A stretch of 23,274 nucleotides of DNA from a virus, in IMG/VR virus record IMGVR_UViG_3300042731_005410, positions 1-23,274 of that record; one strand, 5' to 3'. How positions within the stretch are numbered: position 1 is the first letter of the stretch; every line of letters begins with the position of its first letter. A model generated the notes under the pieces. It searched no databases and was not told the origin of the DNA. It worked only from the letters and a program-made list of their open reading frames with translations. A program made the position numbers and the translations under genes. Shown here in pieces: positions 449 to 10,164 of this stretch.

Positions 449-652
449 ATGAGAGAAGAAATCTACGCAATTAAAACCGCCATTGACGGACTCAGCGATG
501 AGATACTAGAACATCGCAGACACGCCAACATGGAGGATCTCGTCAAGGTTATGAAGAATATCAACGACAGTCTTGTGTCTATTAACTACGACTTAAAAGA
601 GTTAGTTGAAGCAAAAAAGTTTCAAAACGAGTTGACAACAGCCCTAAGATAG
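449..652 (+). CDS. Small helical/coiled-coil protein, 67 aa
   Basis: A 67-residue protein made almost entirely of heptad-compatible helix (IKTAIDGLSDEILEH ... LVKVMKNINDSLVSINYDLKEL), so it probably forms a coiled coil and oligomerises. Its ATG directly abuts the previous stop codon. The last codons contain the -35 element of the promoter for the next gene (TTGACA at 632-637), so the 3' end of this gene is also regulatory DNA. Function unknown. Confidence 0.7.
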   Translation: MREEIYAIKTAIDGLSDEILEHRRHANMEDLVKVMKNINDSLVSINYDLKELVEAKKFQNELTTALR

Positions 653-666
653 TTTACTTTATTATT
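632..666 (+). promoter_or_regulatory. Sigma70-like leaderless promoter for the gene at 667
   Basis: TTGACA at 632-637, a 17-base spacer, TACTTT at 655-660, then six bases to the ATG at 667. With a -10 box ending at -7, transcription would start at the A of ATG. There is no Shine-Dalgarno sequence. The same spacing recurs at many genes in this window. Confidence 0.7.
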
Positions 667-834
667 ATGCAAGATACGATAGATATAACACCAACATGGT
701 CAGCACTCGTTCCTATTATGATCGAGGTGTTGAAAAACCCAAAAGCAAACAACGCAGCAAAAGCAGAAGTAACACAAGAATTGCTTCGTCTTGCAAAAAT
801 TGTAGACAATCAAAACAAAGGAGGTAACCAATGA
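667..834 (+). CDS. Small conserved-type phage protein, 55 aa
   Basis: A 55-residue protein reading MQDTIDITPTWSALVPIM, then IEVLKNPKA, and ending LLRLAKIVDNQNKGGNQ. The TPTW-AL-P pattern followed by an alanine-rich helix and RLA--VD is, from memory, a recurrent layout of short phage proteins of unknown function. The start is fixed by the leaderless promoter ending one base before the ATG. The stop overlaps the next ATG (ATGA at 831-834), while a strong AAAGGAGGT for the next gene lies within this gene's 3' end. Confidence 0.75.
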   Translation: MQDTIDITPTWSALVPIMIEVLKNPKANNAAKAEVTQELLRLAKIVDNQNKGGNQ

Positions 835-2059: not shown

Positions 2060-2083
2060 GAAATAGGCCCTTTGTTGTCTCTA

Positions 2084-2115
2084 CCCCCTTCCCGTTTTTG
2101 GGAAGGGGGTTTTTT
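2084..2115 (+). terminator. Strong intrinsic terminator of the first operon
   Basis: A perfect 10-bp stem, CCCCCTTCCC at 2084-2093 and GGGAAGGGGG at 2100-2109, with a GTTTTT loop, followed by TTTTTT at 2110-2115. This is a textbook rho-independent terminator. It ends the run of small genes before the first 59-bp repeat element. Confidence 0.93.
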
Positions 2116-2124
2116 GTATCTACT

Positions 2125-2183
2125 TGTTATTCAGCCATTTAGGCGGCCCCTGGCGCCATAACTGCCTGATAGTTAACGACTTA
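2125..2183 (+). repeat. 59-bp intergenic element, copy 1
   Basis: First of six copies of a two-part element. The left half-site is diverged (TGTTATTCAGCCATTTA) and the right half-site is TGATAGTTAACGACTTA, with starts 42 bases apart. Between them lies the GC-rich core GGCGGCCCCTGGCGCC and a 9-base linker. It sits after the terminator at 2084-2115 and 30 bases before the promoter of the next unit. Confidence 0.85.
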
Positions 2184-2213
2184 CAACAAAATGCATTTAG
2201 TTGTATTTTTTTC

Positions 2214-2248
2214 TTGTGTCAATTAGGTTTTTACGTTACTTTGTTTAT
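2214..2248 (+). promoter_or_regulatory. Leaderless promoter for the gene at 2249
   Basis: TTGTGT at 2214-2219, a 17-base spacer, TACTTT at 2237-2242, then six bases to the ATG at 2249. The run TTTTTTTCTTG ahead of and into the -35 box is shared almost exactly with the promoters at 3669 and 4742. No ribosome binding site lies between promoter and start. Confidence 0.7.
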
Positions 2249-2377
2249 ATGAAAGCGAGAGATATTAAGATTAGAAAATCGATTCTTTTCACCAAGAGTC
2301 GCCCACACAAGATCAAAAACAAAATCATTCACCGCAAACAAAAACACAAGGAGGTATTTAACTATGTTTATTCCTAA
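2249..2377 (+). CDS. Very basic 42-aa micropeptide
   Basis: A 42-residue protein beginning MKARDIKIRKSILFTKSR, with 14 lysines or arginines plus three histidines. Such charge would suit binding to nucleic acid or a ribosome, but there is no direct evidence. The start is set by the promoter at 2214-2248, which places +1 at this ATG. It overlaps the next gene by 14 bases, and the Shine-Dalgarno of that gene (AAGGAGGT) is inside this reading frame. It could alternatively act as a translated leader for the next gene. Confidence 0.6.
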   Translation: MKARDIKIRKSILFTKSRPHKIKNKIIHRKQKHKEVFNYVYS

Positions 2378-2594
2378 TTCAGACAACCAAGATCAACTAC
2401 CATCTGTTGATGATGTCATGGATGCAACCATGTCCCACCTTTGGAACACTTATATTCGCCCAAATGTTGATGAGTCAGACCAAGAAGAGGCTCAAATGCT
2501 TACCTTAATCGGCAAAGCATTAAGAGATATTCAAGACAAAGCTAGCGCATATGATAAACTACAAAGCGAAAAAGATTACTTTTCTCGCAATTAA
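2364..2594 (+). CDS. Small acidic protein, 76 aa
   Basis: A 76-residue acidic protein (VDDVMDATMSHLWNTYIRPN ... EEAQMLTLIGKALRDIQDKA), mostly helical with no membrane segment. It has the strong ribosome binding site AAGGAGGT eight bases before the ATG. It is the second gene of the unit started at 2249. The intergenic space after it is only 38 bases and is filled by the promoter of the DUF932 gene. Function unknown. Confidence 0.75.
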   Translation: MFIPNSDNQDQLPSVDDVMDATMSHLWNTYIRPNVDESDQEEAQMLTLIGKALRDIQDKASAYDKLQSEKDYFSRN

Positions 2595-2597
2595 TCG

Positions 2598-2632
2598 TTG
2601 ACAAAAACAATCACATCTATATTATTACTATT
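2598..2632 (+). promoter_or_regulatory. Sigma70-like promoter for the DUF932 gene
   Basis: TTGACA at 2598-2603, a 16-base spacer, TATTAT at 2620-2625, then seven bases to the ATG at 2633. The distance from TTG to ATG is 32 bases, as at the other leaderless starts. No Shine-Dalgarno is present. Confidence 0.7.
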
Positions 2633-3502
2633 ATGAATACTGAAGAAAACACCACTATCGCTCCTCGCAAATCTGTTAACCTTAACATTTGTGGAGGTAA
2701 TCGCACTCTCGTAGATTATGAGCTTGTCAAGGCAGTGCCTACTCCGCCTGTCGAGTATCGCAAAAAAGAAAATGCTCTCGGTGAGCGCAATGTATCTTAC
2801 CAACCAATCGCTCACCATGAGTTGGTTGAGCGCACCAAAGGATTCCTTGGTGACAATGGTTTCACCATTCAAGATGAGGTTCATTCTCTCGCTCGTGACA
2901 ACAATCATTACTTCGGATTGTTCTCTGTCGATCATCCGAACCGCGCTGAATCGGATCGTGGTTGTGTGGTTGGCTTGCGCAACTCGCATGACAAAACTTT
3001 TCCTGCGGGATTGTGTGCAGGTGATGCTCCATTCGTTTGCGACAATTTGATTTTTACCAATACAATCAAACTCGCACGTCGTCACACTCGCAACATTTTG
3101 CAAGACCTCAACTTCACCATCAATCGCGCACTTGGTAAATTGTTTGGTTTTTGGCATGGTCAAGACAACAGAATCGAGGCTTATAAAAACTTTGAGCTTA
3201 CCAACTCTCAAGCAAATGATCTCATCATTCGCGCTTGCAAGGCAGGTGCTTTGCCAAAGTCCAAGATTATGGACGTTGTCAACCAATGGGAATCTTCCGA
3301 TCACCCCGAATTTTGGGATCGCAATGTAAACTCTCTTTACAATGCTTTCACCGAAATTTACAAGGGCAATCTCGTTCAGTTGCCTAATCGCTCGGATGCT
3401 CTGCACTCTGTTTTTGATAGTGAGGTTAACTTCGACATCAACAACCATGTTGAGAATGTGCTTGACATGGATGTGGTTGAAGGCGAATTGGTAGAAGCCT
3501 AA
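2633..3502 (+). CDS. DUF932-type phage/plasmid protein, 289 aa
   Basis: A 289-residue soluble protein with the hallmark central block of the DUF932 (phage/plasmid-like) family: VGLRNSHDKTFPAGLCAGDA followed by PFVCDNLIF at about residues 118-147. After it come a basic helix (KLARRHTRNI) and a helical C-terminal half. DUF932 proteins are widespread in phages and plasmids and are mostly uncharacterised. They often sit in early or replication regions. The start follows a leaderless promoter. Codon use is visibly richer in C and G (CTC, CGC, GGT) than in the structural genes to the right, which suits high expression or a different origin. A terminator follows. Confidence 0.85.
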   Translation: MNTEENTTIAPRKSVNLNICGGNRTLVDYELVKAVPTPPVEYRKKENALGERNVSYQPIAHHELVERTKGFLGDNGFTIQDEVHSLARDNNHYFGLFSVDHPNRAESDRGCVVGLRNSHDKTFPAGLCAGDAPFVCDNLIFTNTIKLARRHTRNILQDLNFTINRALGKLFGFWHGQDNRIEAYKNFELTNSQANDLIIRACKAGALPKSKIMDVVNQWESSDHPEFWDRNVNSLYNAFTEIYKGNLVQLPNRSDALHSVFDSEVNFDINNHVENVLDMDVVEGELVEA

Positions 3503-3520
3503 ATACGGGCTTGACAAATA

Positions 3521-3555
3521 CCCCCTTCCTGTGCATCGGGAGGGGGGTTATTTAT
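3521..3555 (+). terminator. Intrinsic terminator after the DUF932 gene
   Basis: CCCCCTTCC at 3521-3529 pairs with GGGAGGGGG at 3538-3546 (one G-T wobble), with an eight-base loop. The downstream T-tract is interrupted (TTATTTATAT). The stem resembles that of the terminator at 2084-2109. Confidence 0.8.
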
Positions 3556-3572
3556 ATCTATATAACTTACAT

Positions 3573-3638
3573 AAGTCGTTGAATACCAACGACTTCGGCG
3601 AGCCCCGGCGCCATAAATGCTTGATATTTAACGAGTTA
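3573..3638 (+). repeat. 59-bp intergenic element, copy 2, with a perfect hairpin
   Basis: The element proper is 3580-3638: left half-site TGAATACCAACGACTTC, core GGCGAGCCCCGGCGCC, linker, right half-site TGATATTTAACGAGTTA, period 42. The left half-site is extended to a perfect 9-bp inverted repeat, AAGTCGTTG (3573-3581) and CAACGACTT (3587-3595), around a five-base loop. It lies between the DUF932 terminator and the promoter at 3669. Confidence 0.87.
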
Positions 3639-3668
3639 CAACAACTTTCAATTTAGTTAACTTTTTTC

Positions 3669-3703
3669 TTGTGTTCAGTTAGGTTGCGCGCTACTTTATA
3701 GGT
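3669..3703 (+). promoter_or_regulatory. Leaderless promoter for the gene at 3704
   Basis: TTGTGT at 3669-3674, a 17-base spacer, TACTTT at 3692-3697, then six bases to the ATG. It is preceded by AACTTTTTTC as at 4777, and stands 30 bases after repeat copy 2. Confidence 0.7.
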
Positions 3704-3904
3704 ATGAACAGAATTGTAAAAATCCTTATGGAGCGTGACGGCTTAAGCCATGAAGACGCTGACTTGCAAGTATCCGCTTTCTTTTCCGAAATGGCTCTCG
3801 ATATCTCACAAGGTGGCGATCCTTTCGAGTGGGAAACTTTGTTTGTAGATGAATTTTCTTTAGAGCCAGACTTTTTTGAAGATTTAGTGTTTGCCTTAGT
3901 TTAA
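3704..3904 (+). CDS. Conserved small acidic phage protein, 66 aa
   Basis: A 66-residue acidic protein. The N-terminus MNRIVKILMERDGLSHEDA and the C-terminal LEPDFFEDLV match the layout of a widespread short phage/bacterial family of unknown function: a basic start with ERDG(L/M)S-E-A, a helical middle, and a GLEPDY-like end. No catalytic residues are evident. Translation should start at the first base of the mRNA. The 3' end contains the -35 element of the next promoter (TTG at 3891). Confidence 0.8.
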   Translation: MNRIVKILMERDGLSHEDADLQVSAFFSEMALDISQGGDPFEWETLFVDEFSLEPDFFEDLVFALV

Positions 3905-3925
3905 AAATTAGTTTACTTTAGTTTT
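3891..3925 (+). promoter_or_regulatory. Leaderless promoter inside the end of the preceding gene
   Basis: TTGCCT at 3891-3896, a 17-base spacer, TACTTT at 3914-3919, then six bases to the ATG at 3926. The -35 box lies within the last codons of the 3704 gene. Confidence 0.65.
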
Positions 3926-4639
3926 ATGATTAACTTACTATCTAACCCAAAAAAGATGCCATGTTATGGTTTCAACATTCCTGCTTTTAAGTATTGCCCT
4001 GCCGCGCAGCTATTAGCAAAGATTAAAGAAGCGGGCAAGAAATTCATTTGTGATTCTTGTTATGCTTGCAAAGGTTTTTATACTTTTGCCAATGTCAAGG
4101 CAAGTTTACAAGCAAAGGCGGATCTTATTACAAAGTCTTTACATCAAGACAACGGGCAAACTTTTGTGGATGCAATGTGCAATCAAATTCGCGCAAAGTA
4201 TTTTGACAAGCACGGCAACAAGAAAAAACTAAAAAACAAAAACACTGATTTGTTTCGCGTTCATGATTCGGGCGACTTGTTTTCCCCAAAGTACATTTCT
4301 GCATGGATTCGCATTTGCGAGCAATTCCCAACTATTCGCTTTTGGTTTCCAACTCGTGAATGGAAACGTGATTCTCAATTGCCCCACTTGCAAAAGTTGG
4401 CTAGTTTTAAAAACGTTTGCTTAAAGCCTAGCGCAATTTATGTAGATGAGCCAGCCCCACAAGTGGACGGACTCGACGCGGGGACTTCAGTTTATACATC
4501 CCAAGCCCAAGCCGAGCAAGACGGGCACTTTGTTTGCCCCGCAACTATAGAGGGCAACGAGCCAACTTGTCAAGCGAATAATTGCAATCTTTGCTTTATT
4601 AAGGGATGCAAGAAGGGAATTGCCTACCTAGCCCACTAA
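3926..4639 (+). CDS. GP88-type cysteine-rich phage protein, 237 aa
   Basis: The protein matches the layout of the phage GP88 family (named after a mycobacteriophage gene product). There is an N-terminal FNIPAFKYCP, then CDSCYACKGFY at about residues 41-51, a central FRVHDSGDLFSPKYISAWIR at about 110-129, and a distal cysteine cluster (CPAT ... CQANNCNLC ... CKKG) at about 207-229. The conserved cysteines suggest a metal or iron-sulfur centre, and the HDSGDLFS motif looks like an active or binding site. No biochemical role is established to my knowledge. It is transcribed from its own promoter and ends just before repeat copy 3. Confidence 0.8.
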   Translation: MINLLSNPKKMPCYGFNIPAFKYCPAAQLLAKIKEAGKKFICDSCYACKGFYTFANVKASLQAKADLITKSLHQDNGQTFVDAMCNQIRAKYFDKHGNKKKLKNKNTDLFRVHDSGDLFSPKYISAWIRICEQFPTIRFWFPTREWKRDSQLPHLQKLASFKNVCLKPSAIYVDEPAPQVDGLDAGTSVYTSQAQAEQDGHFVCPATIEGNEPTCQANNCNLCFIKGCKKGIAYLAH

Positions 4640-4652
4640 TCCCATAAACCGC

Positions 4653-4711
4653 TGATAGTCAACGACTTAGGCGGCCCCTGGCGCCATAAGTGCCTACTAT
4701 TCAACGACTTA
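4653..4711 (+). repeat. 59-bp intergenic element, copy 3
   Basis: One of the best-preserved copies: TGATAGTCAACGACTTA, core GGCGGCCCCTGGCGCC, linker ATAAGTGCC, then TACTATTCAACGACTTA, with a period of 42. ATAAG and CTTAT flank the right half-site as a dyad. It lies between the GP88-type gene and the promoter at 4742. Confidence 0.9.
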
Positions 4712-4741
4712 TGAGAAAATGCATTTTATTTAACTTTTTTC

Positions 4742-4776
4742 TTGCTATAACTAGCGAACTGCATTAGGGTATAGGT
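4742..4776 (+). promoter_or_regulatory. Leaderless promoter for the gene at 4777
   Basis: TTGCTA at 4742-4747, a 17-base spacer, TAGGGT at 4765-4770, then six bases to the ATG. Preceded by TTTAACTTTTTTC as at 3660. It stands 30 bases after repeat copy 3. Confidence 0.65.
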
Positions 4777-5016
4777 ATGACAATTACACATGACGGAAAA
4801 GAATTCTACTTCGAGCGCTTAGCCAATGGCTTACTTAAAACTTATGATTACAAATGCGCTTGGGATATTACATTTAAGAAAGTAGATGGCAAATGGGAAG
4901 GTCACTTTCGTGGCGACTATGTCGGCTACAAAGGTTTACTTAACAAACTTAACCTATTACAACAACAAGTAGATGCAGAAATGGCATTGACAAAAGACTT
5001 ACAAGAGGTTATATAA
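4777..5016 (+). CDS. Small hypothetical protein, 79 aa
   Basis: A 79-residue protein with a beta-rich first half (ITHDGKEFYFERLANGLL ... WDITFKKVDGKWEGHFRGDY) and a C-terminal helix (LLNKLNLLQQQVDAEMALTK). No family recognised. Its last codons encode the -35 and -10 boxes of the next gene's promoter, so coding and promoter sequence overlap. Confidence 0.75.
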   Translation: MTITHDGKEFYFERLANGLLKTYDYKCAWDITFKKVDGKWEGHFRGDYVGYKGLLNKLNLLQQQVDAEMALTKDLQEVI

Positions 5017-5021
5017 TTATT
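4987..5021 (+). promoter_or_regulatory. Near-consensus leaderless promoter for the gene at 5022
   Basis: TTGACA at 4987-4992, a 17-base spacer, TATATA at 5010-5015, then six bases to the ATG at 5022. The -35 and most of the -10 are inside the coding sequence of the upstream gene. This is the copy closest to the bacterial sigma70 consensus. Confidence 0.75.
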
Positions 5022-5366
5022 ATGAAAAGTTTTGATGATTTAAATTTCACTTACGATGAATCCATGATGAGGTGGATGGCATCGCTCACACTTGACAATG
5101 GATATTCTTTCTCAGTTATTGCGGGAAACGATGATGGAGCATTTCAACCTTTTTATGGTCGTTATCCCGATACTTATGAAGTTGCAGTATTTAATCCTGA
5201 CGGAGGTTGGGTTCCTTTGTCAGTCTCAGATGATGTGCTAGGTTGGCAAGAGCCACACAGAATAACTTCTCTTATGCACCAATTTGAGATGGACGGCAAA
5301 GCTCACGAAGATTTGCTCGTAGCAATTCGGGCAGATTTTAATCAAAAACTTGTTGACTCTCACTAA
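5022..5366 (+). CDS. Conserved hypothetical phage protein, 114 aa
   Basis: A 114-residue soluble protein with strands in the first half (LTLDNGYSFSVIAGNDDGAF, then YPDTYEVAVFNPDGGWVPLS), a DDVLGWQEP turn at about residues 70-78, and a C-terminal helix. The series SVI-G ... YEVAVF ... PLS--DDVLGW recurs, from memory, in aquatic phage proteins of unknown function. The start is set by the leaderless promoter; there is no Shine-Dalgarno. Confidence 0.78.
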   Translation: MKSFDDLNFTYDESMMRWMASLTLDNGYSFSVIAGNDDGAFQPFYGRYPDTYEVAVFNPDGGWVPLSVSDDVLGWQEPHRITSLMHQFEMDGKAHEDLLVAIRADFNQKLVDSH

Positions 5367-5387
5367 AAACTAAACTACCTTATTATT
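5353..5387 (+). promoter_or_regulatory. Leaderless promoter for the gene at 5388
   Basis: TTGACT at 5353-5358, a 17-base spacer, TACCTT at 5376-5381, then six bases to the ATG. The -35 lies in the last codons of the upstream gene. Confidence 0.7.
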
Positions 5388-5657
5388 ATGGAATTAACAC
5401 AAGAACAAAGAATCGCAATTATCAAGCACGCCGTTCAAACCTCTCAAGGTGTTGGATTAAACTCTTCACTTGAGGAGTTTGTCTCAGAGATTAAGTCTCA
5501 AGAAGTTTTTGGCGAGCATGGTTTACTTGACAATCAGAGCCACGACATTGAGGACGAAATGTCCTTGATTGACTATGATCCAACCGCAGAAGAGATTGAC
5601 GAAGAAGATCAAGACTTCGGAGTTAGCCAAGAAATGAAAGGGGTTTACAATGATTAA
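5388..5657 (+). CDS. Small acidic protein, 89 aa
   Basis: An 89-residue very acidic protein. The first part is helical (QEQRIAIIKHAVQTSQGV); the second is rich in aspartate and glutamate (IDYDPTAEEIDEEDQDFG). Strong acidity in a small early protein can indicate DNA mimicry, but nothing here shows that. It overlaps the next gene by eight bases. Function unknown. Confidence 0.75.
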   Translation: MELTQEQRIAIIKHAVQTSQGVGLNSSLEEFVSEIKSQEVFGEHGLLDNQSHDIEDEMSLIDYDPTAEEIDEEDQDFGVSQEMKGVYND

Positions 5658-5763
5658 TTTGTTTGAATTTATTGTTTATTTATTTTTCTTGACACCAACC
5701 TTCTTCGCTTTCTATTTAATGTTTAAATGCATGATGGAAGATAATTCAGATTGGTATAAGTAG
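5650..5763 (+). CDS. Single-pass membrane micropeptide, 37 aa
   Basis: A 37-residue peptide with one long hydrophobic segment (residues 3-26, including LFEFIVYLFFL and FFAFYLMF) followed by a short polar tail (MMEDNSDWYK). It is therefore a likely inner-membrane micropeptide. A good ribosome binding site (AAAGGGG) lies upstream of the ATG inside the previous gene. It is the last rightward gene before the convergence point. Small phage membrane peptides can act in lysis, superinfection exclusion or host-enzyme inhibition; the sequence does not say which. Confidence 0.65.
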   Translation: MINLFEFIVYLFFLTPTFFAFYLMFKCMMEDNSDWYK

Positions 5764-5791
5764 AGTTTTCTATTACTACGTTGTTAAAAGT

Positions 5792-5860
5792 CGTAAGTCT
5801 TTGGTATTCAAGGGCTTACGGCGCCCTGGGCGCTATAAACGCCTGATAATCAACGACTTA
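5792..5860 (+). repeat. 59-bp intergenic element, copy 4, between converging units
   Basis: The element proper is 5802-5860: TGGTATTCAAGGGCTTA, core CGGCGCCCTGGGCGCT, linker ATAAACGCC, TGATAATCAACGACTTA, period 42. The left half-site forms a 12-bp stem, CGTAAGTCTTTG (5792-5803) with CAAGGGCTTACG (5809-5820), using two G-T wobbles and a GTATT loop. It lies between a rightward and a leftward gene and could terminate transcription from both. Confidence 0.87.
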
Positions 5861-5862
5861 TG

Positions 5863-6072
5863 TTAAAAGTCGTATTGGTCGTGATAGCCGTAGTCGAAGT
5901 CTTCATAATGGTCTTGCCATACGGGCTCCTCCTCTGGCTGGTTGTAGTGGTTGGCGAGTTGTAAGTTATGTAGTTCCAACTCGGTCCTGCCCGCATTTGC
6001 TTCTGCGCTAAACTGGGCGGCGTGCATCACGGCTAATCCGTGCTTGTCTGTGAGTGCTTGTATTTTATGCAT
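5863..6072 (-). CDS. Small hypothetical protein, 69 aa
   Basis: A 69-residue protein starting MHKIQALTDKHGLAVMHAAQ. The middle is helical, and the C-terminus is acidic and aromatic (EDFDYGYHDQYDF) and probably disordered. The start is fixed by a sigma70-like promoter whose -10 box ends five bases before the ATG. It is the leftmost gene of the minus-strand block, and its stop lies two bases from repeat copy 4. No family recognised. Confidence 0.7.
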   Translation of the reverse strand: MHKIQALTDKHGLAVMHAAQFSAEANAGRTELELHNLQLANHYNQPEEEPVWQDHYEDFDYGYHDQYDF

Positions 6073-6107
6073 ACCCTAACCTACCCCAGGCAGGGGCTAA
6101 TGTCAAA
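6073..6107 (-). promoter_or_regulatory. Leaderless promoter with a CCCC/GGGG dyad
   Basis: Read on the minus strand: TTTGACA (complement of 6101-6107), a 17-base spacer, TAGGTT (complement of 6078-6083), then five bases to the ATG at 6072. The spacer holds an inverted repeat, CCCC at 6084-6087 and GGGG at 6093-6096, next to the -10 box, which could be an operator. It is the only member with 31 bases rather than 32 between TTG and ATG. Confidence 0.65.
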
Positions 6108-6130
6108 TTTTTTTTATTTTTTTATCTGAT

Positions 6131-6189
6131 TGATGATCAACGACTTACGAAACCCGGGGCGCCATAAGCGCCTGATATTCAACGACTTA
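6131..6189 (+). repeat. 59-bp intergenic element, copy 5
   Basis: TGATGATCAACGACTTA, core CGAAACCCGGGGCGCC, linker ATAAGCGCC, TGATATTCAACGACTTA, with a period of 42. Its last three bases are the complement of the stop codon of the minus-strand gene 6187-6387, so element and gene overlap. It lies upstream of the promoter for the gene ending at 5863. It reads on the same strand as copies 1-4 although the flanking genes are on the other strand. Confidence 0.9.
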
Positions 6190-6387
6190 CATATCTTCGG
6201 CTAGCAAGAACAAACGACCTTCGGGGTTAGCCCCTGTGTGGGATAGGTCAACAAAATTACCGCTTTCTGTATTGACTTTTAAGCAAGCCTCACTTATATA
6301 GCGCTCGCCCTTGCGTTCATCTGCCAATTCAGCACTTTCTACTATGGCGACCTTGCCTTGCCCTATGGTAGTTAAAACGAGCTTCAT
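6187..6387 (-). CDS. Small hypothetical protein, 66 aa
   Basis: A 66-residue protein, probably beta-rich (MKLVLTTIGQGKVAIVESAE ... ACLKVNTESGNFVDLS). Its ATG overlaps the TGA of the upstream minus-strand gene (ATGA), so the two are co-translated. Its TAA stop is the terminal TTA of repeat copy 5 read in reverse, which suggests the repeat arrived at or was trimmed to the gene's end. No family recognised. Confidence 0.72.
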   Translation of the reverse strand: MKLVLTTIGQGKVAIVESAELADERKGERYISEACLKVNTESGNFVDLSHTGANPEGRLFLLAEDM

Positions 6388-6557
6388 ATTTTGATAGCTT
6401 TCCCTTCGACATTAACATGAGTTTCTTTTGCTTTGATGGCTATATTTTTCGCATATGCTACCGCCTTACCCTTTGACAAAAACTCATCTACCATTTTGCC
6501 AAACGAGTATACTTGAAACCAATTATCGAAGTTAGTATGTTGTTTTATTGAGATCAT
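6384..6557 (-). CDS. Small basic protein, 57 aa, DUF2188-like pattern
   Basis: A 57-residue protein starting MISIKQHTNFDNWFQVYSFG, followed by LSKGKAVAYAKNIAIKAKE and a final strand (HVNVEGKAIKI). The order strand, lysine-rich helix with KA--YAK--A, strand ending in VEGK recalls the small DUF2188-type fold; this is a weak match by eye. It has its own leaderless promoter on the minus strand. Its stop overlaps the next ATG as ATGA. Confidence 0.65.
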   Translation of the reverse strand: MISIKQHTNFDNWFQVYSFGKMVDEFLSKGKAVAYAKNIAIKAKETHVNVEGKAIKI

Positions 6558-6592
6558 GTTTTTAATCTAGTATAGTTGTTGTATAATTGCAA
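6558..6592 (-). promoter_or_regulatory. Leaderless promoter for the gene starting at 6557
   Basis: Read on the minus strand: TTGCAA (complement of 6587-6592), a 17-base spacer, TAGATT (complement of 6564-6569), then six bases to the ATG at 6557. No Shine-Dalgarno is present. Confidence 0.65.
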
Positions 6593-6593
6593 G

Positions 6594-6887
6594 TTAAATC
6601 GTTGCACATTCTAAGAAAAAGTTATCGTTTACAAGGATAGACTCAAGGCGGGATTTTAACTCTTCCCAATTATCAAGTGCTACTGCATTGTCGTTTGCAT
6701 CCCATGCACCATACAGAACGGGGTTGGTAATGGTGTTGTCAAGGCTATTCCAATCTATATCAACAACAGCACAGCCCTCAAAGTGTGGCTTACCTGTGTC
6801 CTGCATGAGGGTTACTCGGACTTTATCGTTGTCCAAGTTAAGGATTTCTACATCGTGGATTTCTATATTATCAATTATCAATTTCAT
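6594..6887 (-). CDS. Small acidic protein, 97 aa, paralogue of the 7670-7993 gene
   Basis: A 97-residue protein starting MKLIIDNIEIHDVEILNLDN. The shared features with the protein at 7670-7993 are the opening M-(K/N)-L-x-I-D-N, then DTGK--(H/Y)(F/Y)EG at about residues 31-38, an acidic beta-rich middle, and a C-terminal LE(S/N)-x-I-E-S-(I/L)-L helix (here LKSRLESIL). The two are probably diverged duplicates. Each has its own leaderless promoter. No known family or catalytic motif is recognised. It is separated from the upstream gene by repeat copy 6. Confidence 0.75.
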   Translation of the reverse strand: MKLIIDNIEIHDVEILNLDNDKVRVTLMQDTGKPHFEGCAVVDIDWNSLDNTITNPVLYGAWDANDNAVALDNWEELKSRLESILVNDNFFLECATI

Positions 6888-6922
6888 ATAAACAACCTAA
6901 CCCATAAAACAACTTAAAGCAA
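6888..6922 (-). promoter_or_regulatory. Leaderless promoter for the gene starting at 6887
   Basis: Read on the minus strand: TTGCTT (complement of 6917-6922), a 17-base spacer, TAGGTT (complement of 6894-6899), then six bases to the ATG. It is preceded by TTCACTTTTTTC, matching the plus-strand promoters at 3669 and 4742. Repeat copy 6 lies just upstream. Confidence 0.7.
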
Positions 6923-6957
6923 GAAAAAAGTGAATTATTTTTAATTTTTTAAATCGT

Positions 6958-7016
6958 TGACATTCAACGACTTGCGGCGCCAGGGCCCGCCTAAGTACTT
7001 GGTACTCAAGCGGTTA
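6958..7016 (+). repeat. 59-bp intergenic element, copy 6
   Basis: TGACATTCAACGACTTG, core CGGCGCCAGGGCCCGC, linker CTAAGTACT, TGGTACTCAAGCGGTTA, with a period of 42. The left half-site extends to an 8-of-9-bp inverted repeat (AAATCGTTG at 6951-6959, CAACGACTT at 6965-6973). It lies between two minus-strand genes, upstream of the promoter at 6888-6922. Confidence 0.85.
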
Positions 7017-9665: not shown

Positions 9666-10133
9666 ATGACACAATTACTCAAATATGAAAAATCCCTACC
9701 TGCCAGCAGGAACGAATTCTTAACTCCATTTGATTCTTTATTTGATCAAATGATAGGAAAAGCATTTCCTTCATTAGAGCGCGAGCTTGGAGTTGAATTT
9801 TTTGGAAATAACAGTTATCCAAAAGTTGATGTACTCGATACTCCAGAAAGTATCGAATTTGAGGCTGAAATTCCCGGTCTCGAGAAAAATGAAGTTTCTG
9901 TAGAGGTTGATCAAGGCATATTATCAATTTCTGGCGAAAAGAGGTCCCAAGAAAAACGGGAAGATGCTACATATATTCGTAAAGAACTTAAAAAATCTAG
10001 TTTTCAACGATCTTTCAAGCTCTCTGACTCTTTCAACCATGATAAAATCAAAGCAAAATTTGAAAATGGTTTATTATTAATTTCAGTGCCCAAGAAAAAA
10101 CCTGAAAAAAGTAAAAAGGTTAAAATATTATAA
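9666..10133 (+). CDS. hsp20: Small heat-shock protein, Hsp20/alpha-crystallin family, 155 aa
   Basis: The alpha-crystallin domain spans about residues 54-145: YPKVDVLDTPESIEFEAEIP, then GLEKNEVSVEVDQGILSISG and a C-terminal FENGLLLISVPKK. The N-terminal LTPFDSLFDQM is typical of Hsp20. Hsp20 proteins are ATP-independent chaperones that hold unfolding proteins as oligomers. T4-like phages of aquatic hosts often carry one and may use it in virion assembly. I start at 9666, where AAGGA stands upstream, not at the in-frame ATG at 9582. It is followed by a strong terminator. Confidence 0.93.
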   Translation: MTQLLKYEKSLPASRNEFLTPFDSLFDQMIGKAFPSLERELGVEFFGNNSYPKVDVLDTPESIEFEAEIPGLEKNEVSVEVDQGILSISGEKRSQEKREDATYIRKELKKSSFQRSFKLSDSFNHDKIKAKFENGLLLISVPKKKPEKSKKVKIL

Positions 10134-10141
10134 CACCCTAT

Positions 10142-10164
10142 AGCCCTTGAAAAAGGGCTTTTTT
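10142..10164 (+). terminator. Intrinsic terminator after hsp20
   Basis: AGCCCTT (10142-10148) pairs perfectly with AAGGGCT (10153-10159) around GAAA, followed by a T run to 10164. The next promoter candidate, GTGTACAT, starts at 10165, immediately after the T run. Confidence 0.92.

Follow-up and report, generated by a model that had tools for sequence, protein, structure and literature searches.

The intergenic repeat of this virus record is best read as a real, family-wide junction element that resembles the PeSLs and ESAS of other phages in position and likely role, but is built differently and is a member of neither. In the window (the whole 23-kb stretch analyzed, 23,274 nucleotides), the element is a unit of 67 bp, in which two 25-bp near-palindromes flank a 17-bp GC-rich core. 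Its copies are confined to one array of small accessory genes, where they occupy transcription-unit boundaries. The window encodes a terminase (weak match to Terminase_6N; PHROG 2 match), PhoH, and sigma-factor-like, DUF932, and GP88 proteins, and no close isolate phage was found for it. Companions in the collection suggest that the phage family is largely marine. The window also carries a gene for an HSP20-like small heat-shock protein (9666-10133, read from the translation), followed by a short terminator-like hairpin (∼10140-10164).

The consensus of each half, TAAGTNNTTGANNNTCAANNACTTA, is an 11-3-11 palindrome with near-invariant AA/TT and TTG/CAA positions in a weight matrix (PWM) built up from element halves. 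Scanned over 2.5 Mb, this matrix returned 1236 strong halves (66 of them unpaired), compared with 6 in shuffled DNA. Within the window, 12 halves scored above 12 bits, whereas 200 dinucleotide shuffles yielded 0.03 on average; six pairs were observed, and the shuffles contained none. The scan recovered all six copies where the initial annotation had placed them (Table 1). The 59-bp unit given there was too short: it lacked the first palindrome's left arm and cut through the second palindrome, whose left arm had been taken for a "9-base linker". The core is GC-rich as described, but comprises 17 instead of 16 bp, and GGCGCC, reported for five cores, is present in all six (copy 6 being reversed).

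Table 1. Element copies and neighboring signals in the window
Feature	Position	Strand	Remarks
Element copy 1	2117..2183	+	Halves 2117-2141 and 2159-2183, core 2142-2158; PWM scan
Element copy 2	3572..3638	+	PWM scan
Element copy 3	4645..4711	+	Begins 5 nt past the GP88 gene stop
Element copy 4	5794..5860	+	Between convergent genes
Element copy 5	6123..6189	+	Minus-strand gene 6187-6387 takes its stop codon from the final TTA
Element copy 6	6950..7016	-	Core reversed; upstream of minus-strand gene 6594-6887
Intrinsic terminator immediately ahead of copy 1	2083..2110	+	
Intrinsic terminator immediately ahead of copy 2	3520..3548	+	Terminator-element pair conserved; it also follows DUF932 in the relatives inspected
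Copy 1 unit promoter, TTGTGT-17-TACTTT	2214..2251	+	ATG 2249, 65 nt past element; read from sequence
Copy 2 unit promoter, TTGTGT-17-TACTTT	3669..3706	+	ATG 3704, 65 nt past element
Copy 3 unit promoter, TTGCTA-17-TAGGGT	4742..4779	+	ATG 4777, 65 nt past element
Promoter left of copy 5, TTGACA-17-TAGGTT	6078..6106	-	Serves minus-strand gene 5863-6072; read from sequence
Promoter left of copy 6, TTGCTT-17-TAGGTT	6885..6922	-	Start codon 6887, 62 nt from element

Relatives were IMG/VR contigs retrieved via the terminase, DUF932, and GP88 genes of the window, and the PWM scan found at least 385 distinct paired copies in these related viral contigs. The half-to-half distance is 42 bp in all six window copies and in the window clade. 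The 42-bp period was therefore described correctly for the window, but it is not invariant beyond the clade: distances of 41, 46-48, 50, or 53 bp occur elsewhere, each nearly constant per genome. The initial annotation had proposed that four helical turns put two bound proteins on the same face of the DNA. However, some relatives keep 46-48 bp much as the window clade keeps 42, and because the spacing differs by clade and 47 bp corresponds to ∼4.5 turns, same-face phasing is not the conserved property. The same annotation had regarded an absence of further copies, with indels breaking the period, as the sign of a passive, decaying repeat. Instead, relatives carry hundreds of copies and the length is nearly fixed per genome, so that this outcome did not occur. 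Variant elements were seen in related phages (L107, L111, L112, L126, and L127): either one of the arms reads TAATTATATGA or TAACTATATGA, or the core contains the hairpin AAATCGC...GCGATTT at a spacing of ∼60 bp. Arm variants mark the L107, L112, and L127 clades.

Halves and core follow different rules. Half similarity is 0.75 within genomes and 0.74-0.76 between them, whereas the 16-17-bp cores show a similarity of 0.78-0.83 within genomes and of 0.59-0.60 between. Since cores are alike within and unlike between genomes, and halves are equally alike everywhere, the simplest reading of these sequences is that the core undergoes concerted evolution while the arms are constrained across the whole family. 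A universally palindromic core was rejected, because the core dyad exceeds shuffles in just 12 of 34 genomes and is absent or negative in several.

The array is restricted to one region. In a 200-kb relative, every paired copy falls within a stretch of ∼11 kb (179.7-191 kb). Among 371 classified copies, 288 lie at tandem, 60 at convergent, and 23 at divergent junctions, and 8 more lie inside called genes; the span contains 69 convergent junctions, with the 60 convergent copies. The placement between transcription units that had been described for the window is borne out in that all six copies sit at unit boundaries, but the copy at 6123 also supplies a gene's stop codon, and in 63 cases the first TAA of the element is the stop codon of a gene. 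An intrinsic terminator precedes none of the 179 copies that abut gene 3′ ends, compared with 67 of the 139 located at 46-130 nt, a contrast that arises in part because a terminator hardly fits into so short a gap.

On its other side, the element is frequently linked to a promoter at a fixed distance. Of the 191 TTTTTCTTG motifs in the arrays, 131 follow an element within 60 bp, 116 of these at 21-26 bp, and the exact distance is clade-specific. The distance from the element to the next ATG peaks at 62-66 nt. Most TTGACA promoters in the arrays have no element. The 60 convergent copies lack an adjacent promoter, so that a purely promoter-linked role fails, and conservation is slightly lower in the promoter-side half than in the 3′-side half; on these grounds, we rejected a site that serves only a promoter activator. 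The array genes appear to be leaderless, with -10-like TACTTT or TATTAT motifs 5-9 nt before the ATG (window 632-669, 2598-2635, 3909-3928, and 5353-5390). Promoters inside the units have TTGACA-like -35 motifs, unlike most element-linked promoters.

We see an even chance that the element marks a boundary at which a bound protein co-regulates the units, and that module shuffling also results from the repetition of the element. Each 25-bp palindrome would suit a dimeric sequence-specific protein, with the GC-rich spacer in between. The two bound proteins of the initial annotation agree with an element that looks like a protein site in DNA, but two dimers, instead of two monomers, would probably bind, because each half is itself palindromic. 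The boundary module would consist of a terminator or a bare stop codon, the element, 21-26 bp, a T-tract with a weak -35 (TTTTTCTTG), 17 bp, the -10, and a leaderless ATG. At every boundary, both palindromes would most likely be occupied by a protein of the phage (or of the host), which would thereby insulate and co-regulate the units of the array. Conservation of the element is independent of the presence of a terminator, which counts against this reading; we infer, rather than observe, protein binding, insulation, and regulation. The one DNA-binding-type family correlated with the element is a conserved AbrB/MazE-like protein of ∼100 amino acids, encoded in 8 of 10 large related records (G001-G006, G008, and G009; e.g. 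L344:3053-3349, minus strand). It is missing from the element-free record G007 but also from the element-bearing record G010, and it is acidic in the one translated copy; with this imperfect correlation, it is a weak lead at most and was not retained as the binder.

Gene order breaks at the elements. Gene maps of six relatives show blocks that are swapped, inserted, and inverted between elements, and in a comparison of L096 with L106 blocks are permuted, with several of their limits inside elements. Across 24 loci, two genes separated by an element remain neighbors in 22% of same-strand comparisons and in 10% of opposite-strand pairs, compared with 41% at element-free boundaries of at least 40 bp and 68% inside operons, the comparisons being non-independent because some of these loci are near-identical or closely related. 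Ends of alignment blocks coincide with elements in 19.7% of cases against 10.3 ± 1.3% at rotated positions, a figure that is supportive only, because elements resemble each other and alignments tend to run into them. With 6 to 16 similar copies in one array, recombination may take place between copies, and it would both homogenize the cores and move, insert, invert, or delete whole units. For its route, we infer homologous exchange as a candidate: the 200-kb relative encodes RecA, SSB, and Holliday-junction-type nucleases (by family match), a set that would in principle suffice for homologous shuffling. In two phages that are 96-97% identical, ∼690 bp are inserted between an element and its promoter (L101:4290-4450 versus L106:10930-11760).

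An alternative that we consider unlikely is a REP/BIME- or MITE-like palindromic repeat, mobile or selfish, which would multiply within each genome, survive only in the spaces between units, and owe the conservation of its arms to recognition by a trans-acting enzyme. The genome-specific cores would fit such a repeat, as would the very similar paired palindromes, with an AT-rich core, that are dispersed in at least 124 copies in a Microscillaceae MAG (G011, JALONJ01; e.g. L324-L343). However, these look-alikes are flanked by GGACAGTTT...AAACTGTCCGAAGTATTG, are embedded in a longer repeat, and are untied to gene ends; their kinship is uncertain, and a bacterial origin via this repeat was rejected. 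Fixed distances to promoter and ATG are likewise unexpected for random insertions. The Y1 transposase (PF01797) that characterizes REP/BIME with RAYT was found in none of six phage records, and neither tyrosine nor serine recombinases were found in ten. A pattern scan located at least 120 stretches in viral contigs, many with genes of the same family, and 29 in bacterial MAGs, several of them phage-like. The latter include contigs binned as Halobacteriovorax, Flavobacteriaceae, and Verrucomicrobiales, for which a MAG-based host assignment is unsafe. In isolated phages, there was no convincing match, only two weak 40-base hits.

It is rather improbable that the element acts as a functional RNA, i.e. 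as a bidirectional terminator or 3′-end hairpin that replaces intrinsic terminators. The lack of terminators before abutting copies, the presence of the element in most convergent junctions, and the core dyad in a subset of genomes would all be in line with this, but the dyad is not general, and the window copies have no U-tract. Arm covariation within or between halves showed no consistent excess over shuffled partners (small deviations of either sign), and the element had no Rfam covariance-model match and no tRNA match, in agreement with the initial statement that it is unlike tRNA. Moreover, copies that follow strong terminators and precede promoters, e.g. downstream of DUF932 in the relatives inspected, are equally conserved. 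The absence of arm covariation and the copies between terminator and promoter argue for selection on double-stranded DNA, not RNA. An RNA hairpin or attC-like fold was therefore rejected, as was a simple terminator substitute, because conservation is equal with and without a terminator.

Integron attC sites stand at gene 3′ ends, take part in cassette-like shuffling, and form a site family particular to each genome, and the element shares all three traits. We attach little probability, comparable with that of the RNA reading, to the possibility that the array is a phage counterpart of superintegrons, in which a paired-palindrome site would serve specifically for the acquisition, loss, inversion, and rearrangement of units by a recombination enzyme outside the known tyrosine and serine families, for example a phage Holliday-junction nuclease that cuts the extruded cruciform of the element, or a host enzyme. 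An integron-like cassette system, in which the element is an attC-like site and a tyrosine recombinase moves single-unit cassettes, is highly unlikely. It would explain the stop codons supplied by the element, the units shuffled, inserted, and inverted between elements, and the restriction of the array to one region. However, a tyrosine recombinase (PF00589) was found in 0 of 10 related records with a positive control, although these records could be incomplete and the host could supply such an enzyme. Consistent cross-arm covariation, expected from hairpin pairing of a folded single strand, is absent, and orientation relative to genes is not fixed (100 versus 31, even with the major orientation chosen per genome). 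Tyrosine recombinases, serine resolvases, and Y1 transposases were accordingly rejected as machinery, as none was present in the phage records searched. Purely passive short homologies that travel with a duplicated promoter, without any protein, would account for the clade-specific element-promoter spacing, as in an inherited composite, but hardly for arms conserved family-wide while core and flanks drift, and are very improbable.

A literature search, with most subscription journals outside its reach, found no earlier description of the element. Among the closest known systems are the PeSLs (promoter early stem-loops) of T4-like phages, reportedly described by Arbiol (2010) and Comeau (2014). 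According to a further account, they are repeated composites of a terminator and an early promoter in hyperplastic regions (PMC4503421). The element likewise forms a repeated inter-unit composite associated with module shuffling, located in shuffled accessory regions, and a terminator-promoter composite of this type is seen at copies 1 and 2 and after DUF932 genes, but not at abutting 3′ ends. Compared with PeSLs as described there, the paired palindrome is a third component between terminator and promoter, has a genome-specific core, and also occurs at sites that lack a promoter or a terminator. ESAS of cluster K mycobacteriophages are pairs of 17-bp repeats, mutually inverted with a 4-13-bp spacer, beside a 13-bp SAS (PMC3203893). 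Like the element, they consist of two imperfect repeats around a spacer and lie upstream of non-structural gene starts, with a consensus that differs by subcluster and a function that is unknown (PMC3203893). In contrast, the element has no 17-bp inverted pair with a 13-bp SAS; its halves are self-palindromic and 25 bp long, its spacer measures 15-28 bp in most cases and hardly varies within a genome, and convergent 3′ ends carry copies as well.

Two further mycobacteriophage repeats invite comparison, the second of which, the stoperator, is bound by a phage repressor that stops elongation. The 17-bp 7-3-7 palindromes of cluster O occur in >30 copies with a variable 3-bp center and inferred inter-copy recombination, but are single, and about a third lie inside genes, whereas the element is paired and confined to the boundaries of one array (PMC4351075). 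Stoperators of cluster A are many dispersed sites in short intergenic spaces and are bound by a phage protein; they are 13-bp asymmetric sites whose orientation follows transcription, in contrast to the symmetric pairs of near-palindromic halves and the weak orientation bias found here (PMC9283540).

The element is a marker that delimits modules of accessory genes of unknown function in a widespread family of uncultivated phages, and its genome-specific core provides a natural signature for tracing recently moved cassettes. It also opens to experiment the question of how phages maintain transcriptional order in a plastic gene array.
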